From contig JAGXRB010000047.1 in the NCBI GenBank assembly GCA_018336075.1, positions 1-37,912 of the forward strand: 37,912 bases of DNA, read 5' to 3'. Below the pieces are notes generated by a model, which was given only the letters and a program-made list of their open reading frames with translations, had not been told where the DNA came from and did no database searches. This DNA comes from Bacteroidota bacterium (GTDB lineage: Bacteria > Bacteroidota > Bacteroidia > Bacteroidales > F082). Position 1 is the first letter of the stretch, and each line of letters starts with the position of its first letter. Positions 24,168-24,362 of the stretch are shown here, in pieces. Made by a program: the position numbers and the translations under genes.

Positions 24168-24202
24168 AAAAAAAATCCCGCCTGATTTTTTATCAGGCGG
24201 GA
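24168..24202 (-). terminator. Attenuator terminator in the his leader
   Basis: On the - strand a perfect 11-bp GC-rich stem (tcccgcctgat/atcaggcggga; 24192-24202 with 24176-24186) has a 5-A loop and runs into eight U's (24168-24175). It is an intrinsic terminator placed in front of, not behind, the his operon. It ends 11 bases before the hisG ATG and 31 bases after the leader peptide stop codon. Confidence 0.92.
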
Positions 24203-24268
24203 CATTCATGGTTTTGTAAAATATCTTTTAATTTCAGATTATACAATACAACAAGCGATCACCTGACA
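24191..24268 (-). promoter_or_regulatory. Possible antiterminator pairing in the his leader
   Basis: On the - strand, tgtcaggtg (24260-24268), which follows the His codons, can pair with cgcctgata (24191-24199), the loop-side half of the terminator's 5' arm, as 9 bp including two G-U pairs. The same upstream segment can alternatively pair through ggtgat (24258-24263) with atcatc inside the His codons (24281-24286). These exclusive pairings have the logic of a 1:2, 2:3, 3:4 attenuator. They were found by eye without energy calculation. Confidence 0.55.
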
Positions 24269-24311
24269 GGATGTTAAAATGATGATGCCTATGATGTAGT
24301 GTTGAAAACAT
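24234..24311 (-). CDS. hisL: His operon leader peptide (HisL), 25 residues, run HHRHHH
   Basis: Too short for ordinary ORF calling. The - strand ATG at 24309-24311 opens a 25-codon frame ending TGA at 24234-24236. Codons 6-11 are CAT CAT AGG CAT CAT CAT, giving HHRHHH, so five of 25 residues are histidine in a six-residue block. The peptide begins MFSTL, has no other notable motif and ends LLYCII. It lies between a promoter and a terminator upstream of hisG, the position of hisL in Enterobacteria, whose peptide carries seven consecutive His. The inferred role is to stall ribosomes when charged tRNA-His is scarce. The sequence is unrelated to the E. coli leader outside the His run. Confidence 0.85.
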   Translation of the reverse strand: MFSTLHHRHHHFNILSGDRLLYCII

Positions 24312-24331
24312 TTTTCTTTTTGTTTGGGCGG

Positions 24332-24362
24332 CTAAATTACCATTTAATGAGACAATAACAAG
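24332..24362 (-). promoter_or_regulatory. His operon promoter (CTTG-N19-TAATTTAG)
   Basis: On the - strand, CTTG (24359-24362) is 19 bases upstream of TAATTTAG (24332-24339), which matches the -7 consensus TAnnTTTG at seven of eight positions. The spacing is as expected for Bacteroidota sigma factor promoters. Transcription would start near 24325, about 14 bases before the hisL ATG. It lies downstream of the ompH terminator. Confidence 0.6.

Follow-up and report, generated by a model that had tools for sequence, protein, structure and literature searches.

A probable histidine attenuator with a His-rich leader peptide before the his operon of a Bacteroidota bacterium, and its conservation among related loci

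We have found, in a stretch of 37,912 nucleotides from a Bacteroidota bacterium (the whole of which is called here the window), what is very probably a ribosome-mediated transcription attenuator of the his operon, of the classical amino-acid type. Judged by NCBIfam matches, the operon is complete, with the order hisGDC[NB]HAF[IE] (24156-17157); it is on the - strand, as are the leader features described below. Its first gene, hisG, codes for ATP phosphoribosyltransferase (24156-23296; TIGR00070, 191.7 bits) and is the single hisG match of the genome. It is followed by hisD (23249-21957; TIGR00069), hisC (21960-20926; TIGR01141), hisNB, the bifunctional hisB (21001-19817; NF003937), hisH (19816-19232; TIGR01855), hisA (19235-18501; TIGR00007), hisF (18511-17759; TIGR00735) and hisIE (17762-17157; NF002747). 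The family match of hisNB starts at residue 25, so the listed TTG is probably upstream of the true start. The gene preceding the operon (24948-24433) is weakly Skp-like and has a terminator-like site of its own (24410-24386), so that the his operon is probably transcribed from a promoter of its own.

The leader peptide ORF (MFSTLHHRHHHFNILSGDRLLYCII, 24311-24234) has 25 codons, with an ATG at 24311 and a TGA stop at 24234; its product would not be expected to form a stable protein. Its codons 6-11 (24296-24279, CAT CAT AGG CAT CAT CAT, within segment 1 of the attenuator) specify His His Arg His His His; the ORF and its HHRHHH block had been reported in a preliminary description of this DNA, and the coordinates were found to be right on rechecking. 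Dinucleotide shuffling of the 300 nt upstream of hisG never produced, in 10,000 trials, a short ORF with at least five His in six codons, and over both strands of the window the leader is the sole short ATG ORF (8-45 codons) with at least four His in six codons. The probable promoter (24361-24332) consists of a TTG (24361-24359), a 19-nt spacer and the -7 box TAATTTAG (24339-24332). It had been proposed as TTG-N19-TAnnTT(T)G; the TTG and the spacer stand, but the -7 box has one mismatch with the Bacteroidota consensus TAnnTTTG and the promoter is only near consensus. The box is TACTTTTG in the same-genus relatives L004 and L007, while that of L003 equals the box of the window. We counted promoters at 86 of the 90 loci used for the statistics given below, the other four having too little upstream sequence: TAnnTTTG was found within 60 nt before the leader ATG at 47 of them (against 6.3% of shuffles), and the same box plus a TTG at 18-21 nt spacing at 32 (against 0.7%). 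A generic sigma-70 promoter scan was uninformative (15 sites for 16.7 expected). From the position of the promoter, transcription would start at about 24325.

The intrinsic terminator (segments 3 and 4, 24203-24168) has a stem of 11 perfect pairs, or 12 with an outer G-T pair (24203-24175), a loop of five A and a run of eight T (24175-24168), eight U in the RNA, that ends 11 bases before the hisG ATG; stem length, U run and distance agree with what had been described. Among the five terminator-like sites found between 20000 and 26000 it has the most pairs and the most G-C pairs. As a class such sites are not enriched there (5.3 expected), as would fit a chance His-rich ORF beside an unrelated terminator, with the his operon unregulated in this organism. 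We give next to no credence to that explanation: the upstream gene already has its own terminator-like site, and leader and terminator are conserved together in relatives, with covariation. It is from this conservation, as far as the sequences tell, that the weight of the hisG terminator comes.

A search of named genomes with a HisG alignment gave 579 confirmed matches, from which the best 80 were taken; these are the loci nearest to the HisG of the window and not an even sample, and they belong to Flavobacteriaceae, Chitinophaga and relatives, Marinifilaceae, Saprospiraceae and others. Scanning up to 330 nt from hisG, we detected a His-rich leader at 77 of the 80, a terminator at 75 and both at 73, while the shuffle control gave a leader in 53 and a terminator in 31 of 1600 sequences. 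The true counts, by eye, are slightly above those of the rule. Inspection of L058, L068, L076 and L102 revealed terminators with interrupted or displaced U runs, and L086 has a leader with only two His, like L005 of the window's family; at L057 and L074 no leader was seen on inspection. Within the family of the window, 19 of 100 sampled genomes had a HisG match (E 0.001), and 17 of the 18 loci read upstream, window included, carried a leader with at least three His, the exception being L005. Three other loci were left unused: L001 (the window again), L020 (a weak match) and L021 (the second piece of a broken hisG). The prediction that relatives would keep a His-rich ORF and a hairpin upstream of hisG was thus borne out, and in the loci compared the His codons are kept while the flanks diverge between lineages. 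Among the Bacteroidota loci nearest to the HisG of the window (best 80 of 579), the classical his attenuator is the rule.

Some side observations were made on these loci. L005, which belongs to the genus of the window, has kept the leader ORF and the terminator with only those two His codons, perhaps a decaying or weakened switch. The remaining 81 of the 100 sampled genomes of the family had no HisG match at E 0.001, so many members of the family may be histidine auxotrophs; in the genus of the window, six of nine genomes sampled keep hisG. Between terminator and hisG, L009, L010, L013, L014 and L016-L018 have a stretch, e.g., CCGGTTTACTCAG, that by eye could in several loci pair with the loop of the terminator (CTGAGTAAATCGG) and in some with the start of hisG (ATGAGTAAA); in L014 these sequences change together. 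It is perhaps a second, translational control. With 11 bases between terminator and hisG, the window has no room for such a stretch.

A leader peptide and a terminator become a switch only with an alternative pairing between them, and this element was absent from the preliminary description. We have identified a predicted antiterminator in which segment 2 (TGTCAGGTG, 24268-24260), a part of the leader ORF that lies 10 bases beyond the His block, binds the 5' arm and loop of the terminator at CGCCTGATA (24199-24191). It comprises nine pairs, two of them G-U, with a predicted energy of -14.1 kcal/mol that was equalled in 3 of 5000 shuffles of the region. A further hairpin, 1:2 (24302-24243), joins 24302-24281, where most of the His codons lie, to 24263-24243; it belongs to the minimum free energy fold of the full-length RNA and hides part of segment 2. 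For the whole leader RNA the predicted energy is -38.9 kcal/mol, while shuffles average -23.3 (z -4.61; none of 200 as low). Over the 90 loci, hairpin 1:2 had a mean of -8.8 kcal/mol compared with -6.1 in shuffles, and at several loci (e.g., L107, L118, L083) it was no better than shuffles; in the sequences compared it appears as a group tendency only. By prediction, then, the leader segments can form the exclusive hairpins 1:2, 2:3 and 3:4 as in textbook attenuators.

The ribosome was modeled as a mask of 15 nt on each side, placed on the RNA made before the 3' arm of the terminator, and seven states were tried. With the mask on His6, 7, 9 or 10 the predicted fold was an extended antiterminator of -18.6 kcal/mol, and on His11 one of -15.8. 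At the stop codon the extension was gone and the core (-10.2) stayed the best fold of this RNA; the full-length fold with the ribosome there was hairpin 1:2 plus the terminator. The stop codon is 23 nt beyond segment 2, so a ribosome at the stop would leave this segment uncovered. Without a ribosome, the RNA lacking the 3' arm still favored the antiterminator (-19.0) and not hairpin 1:2, and the full-length RNA favored the terminator in all seven states. Since the folding model alone does not separate the states, the choice between terminator and antiterminator would have to be kinetic and depend on timing, as is usual for attenuators.

The statistics of the antiterminator were obtained from 90 of 98 loci, after dropping those that failed the rule for the leader (at least three His) or for the terminator (L057, L058, L068, L074, L076, L086, L102 and L005). 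When the terminator arm was paired as well as possible with the stretch downstream of the His block, the mean was -13.2 kcal/mol, against -6.8 when the stretch was shuffled (standard deviation of 30 shuffle means, 0.19). Two main kinds of terminator arm were found, CCCGYYTGAG-like (type I, 72 loci by a simple rule that wrongly placed at least L085 and L090 there) and GGCTTACC-like (type II, 18 loci). When leaders and arms were paired over all combinations, same-kind pairings gave -10.3 (I/I) and -12.7 (II/II) and swapped ones -7.5 and -8.8, the best value being that of leaders with their own arm (-13.2). We also counted pairs in an alignment of 50 first-kind sequences, taken from a non-redundant set of 52 by excluding L085 and L090, the arms of which are of another kind. 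In the terminator 99.1% of the cells were paired, with changes on both sides in five of nine pairs. The seven-pair core of the antiterminator had 96.0% of its cells paired (92.8% in shuffles), 23 cells with both partners changed (2.3 on average in shuffles) and a covariation score of 0.280 (0.206 in shuffles), and sliding it by 1-3 columns left only 20-50% paired. Changes on both sides affected only two of the seven antiterminator pairs, a number reached by 43 of 500 shuffles, and the tally of pair types did not stand out, 436 of 500 shuffles having as many. We therefore rely more on the swap test. In the loci aligned, terminator and antiterminator covary, also between lineages with different arms. 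Together with the conservation of leader and terminator, this predicted covarying antiterminator supports the attenuator interpretation proposed before.

The device would work as follows, where we infer the translation of the leader ORF, the stalling, the timing and the response to histidine. RNA polymerase would start shortly before the leader ORF. With ample histidyl-tRNA the ribosome would read past the His codons to the stop, and the terminator 3:4 would then form, aided by hairpin 1:2 hiding segment 2, so that transcription would end before hisG. If histidyl-tRNA ran short, the ribosome would halt on the His codons and cover segment 1, and the freed segment 2 would pair with the 5' arm of the terminator before the 3' arm exists. 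Once this antiterminator had formed, the polymerase would continue into hisGDC[NB]HAF[IE].

A terminator with an alternative pairing would also fit control by a trans-acting protein, or by a metabolite or tRNA aptamer (riboswitch, T-box), the ORF being secondary. The Rfam search argues against it: no family reached its gathering score in the window, including RF00514 (His_leader), RF01692 (Bacteroid-trp), T-box and riboswitches, and 20 related loci gave three tRNA genes only. The weak matches in the window up to E 10 were all below the family cut-offs and scattered over unrelated families. Besides, the feature common to divergent loci is the block of His codons. We therefore regard control by a protein or aptamer as very unlikely indeed. 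The absence of RF00514 even among the matches up to E 10 agrees with the earlier statement that the leader is unrelated to the enterobacterial one.

There are similar leaders in the same genome. A Trp-rich leader, MNVNFWWWHYLSTPALMN, precedes a trpE-like gene (PF04715; L174, contig C203), a Phe/Tyr-rich one, MNAQTSFYYYFYFGSASKGGGSCV, the prephenate dehydratase gene pheA (PF00800; L175, contig C316), and a Thr-rich one, MMLTTGTTFTTTTTTTGNGKRRFCIK, a frame of 820 codons with homoserine dehydrogenase (PF00742; L176, contig C2), the start of which looks like an aspartokinase. By eye, each of the three leaders has a terminator-like hairpin with a T run after it. No Thr-rich leader was seen at the second homoserine dehydrogenase locus of the genome (L172), the search of the genome for ilvD gave no match, and Rfam had no match at L172-L175. 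With the his operon, this makes four amino-acid genes or operons with leaders of this kind in one genome. These leaders bear on another possibility, that the ribosome is arrested by the peptide itself or by free histidine (as in TnaC) and not by uncharged histidyl-tRNA. Downstream of the His block some leaders do have conserved residues, SGD in most members of the genus of the window and QAS or QAR in many Flavobacteriaceae. This conservation can be explained by the overlap of the leader tail with the antiterminator segment that it encodes, the flanks differ between lineages over a constant His block, and the matching Trp, Phe/Tyr and Thr leaders fit the sensing of codons. Arrest by the peptide or by histidine is thus very unlikely, and the sensing of charged tRNA by a translating ribosome is the reading that we keep.

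Over the phylum, hisG was found in 252 of 296 genomes. A His-rich leader was present at 14 of 20 loci from 17 other families, and 20 further loci had it in all 19 from family f24 and not in the one from f18; the seven loci without a His-rich leader are from f15, f18 (two), f19, f20, f26 and f29. Short leaders, MIYTTTHHHHSPDE and MKYILSHHYHLFPDEQLGGRG, together with a terminator of the second kind, were found in two genomes from another family of the same order. As a separate observation made by eye, the leaders upstream of hisG in family f10 (L024, L025, L050) end in HHFHHSS; a short hairpin spans their stop codon, and no terminator with a clear U tract was apparent.

Family f24 belongs to another class of the phylum, and 31 of its 35 genomes with hisG were read (L026, L031, L034, L036-L039, L043, L045-L047, L049, L152-L170). 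The His-rich leader was found at all 31 loci, against 97 of 930 shuffles, and an intrinsic terminator, by the rule used, at none. TAnnTTTG is located no more than 16 nt before the chosen start codon in 19 of the 31. Where long flanks were available (12 loci), C exceeds G by 10-18 in the 70 nt that follow the stop, a surplus equalled by 0-4% of other sequence windows. A hairpin, GRTGTCC/GGACATC, lies inside the ORF in 13 of the 31 loci, and variants of it, plus a short hairpin over the stop codon, were seen by eye in several others. A leader with no terminator and followed by a C-rich, G-poor stretch suggests Rho-dependent termination, and the sequences point to these loci as candidate Rho-dependent his attenuators. 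A Rho-dependent reading has been proposed for Mycobacterium cysteine leaders without terminators (PMC1262725). Tentatively, as an idea that we entertain rather than favor, the sensor may have been kept across much of the phylum while the termination module was exchanged. The class of the window would have an intrinsic terminator with a lineage-specific arm that the antiterminator follows, and f24 a leader close behind the promoter, no intrinsic terminator and Rho-dependent attenuation of a biosynthetic operon. If so, a ribosome that stalls in f24 when the peptide is almost complete would shield a Rho-loading site.

The RF01692 motif, which we take to be a Trp leader attenuator, fell below its cut-off both at the his leader and at the trpE-like locus of this genome. 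In its source this Bacteroidetes motif, Bacteroid-trp RNA, is marked as a likely cis-regulatory RNA (PMC2864571). The transcriptome of Flavobacterium psychrophilum provided clues of leader-peptide attenuation at amino-acid biosynthesis operons, and a structured 5' element of hisG, conserved in other Flavobacteriaceae genera and with no Rfam hits (PMC9723704). That element precedes the same gene in the same phylum as the leader studied here, and we liken the two by description and not by alignment; in the accessible part of the report it is described without leader sequence or antiterminator, and not explicitly as of the leader-peptide kind (PMC9723704). The preliminary description had considered the leader as unannotated and perhaps undescribed: the first holds in that no Rfam family reached its cut-off, while these clues and the conserved hisG element weaken the second. 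Small ORFs reminiscent of leader peptides have been noted in B. thetaiotaomicron (PMC7366714), and short leader genes, Bacteroidetes included, have been treated statistically (PMC4833913). As of 2010, according to the account in PMC2965389, the leader peptide systems that had been shown were confined, ermC excepted, to Proteobacteria and Actinobacteria, and that work added Firmicutes. Our literature search, which had most subscription journals outside its scope so that earlier reports may exist, gave no description of this leader in the lineage of the window.

The device is of a well-known type that, judged by related genomes, is widespread in this large phylum but seems little described there, and what is added here is the antiterminator, its covariation and the spread of the system among the sampled loci. 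This gives a predicted histidine switch for a large bacterial group, one that is hard to annotate because the ORFs are short and there is no Rfam model, and it provides material for asking how switches change their parts and yet keep their function. A close parallel in kind is the enterobacterial his attenuator (hisL), in which a His-rich leader peptide and alternative hairpins come with an intrinsic terminator before hisG; the window has the same layout, its alternative hairpins being predicted. The gene order hisGDC[NB]HAF[IE] is also common to the enterobacterial operon and that of the window (PMC8305728). In contrast to the enterobacterial attenuator, the His block of the window is interrupted (HHRHHH), its promoter is of Bacteroidota type and the terminator arms of its group vary between lineages.
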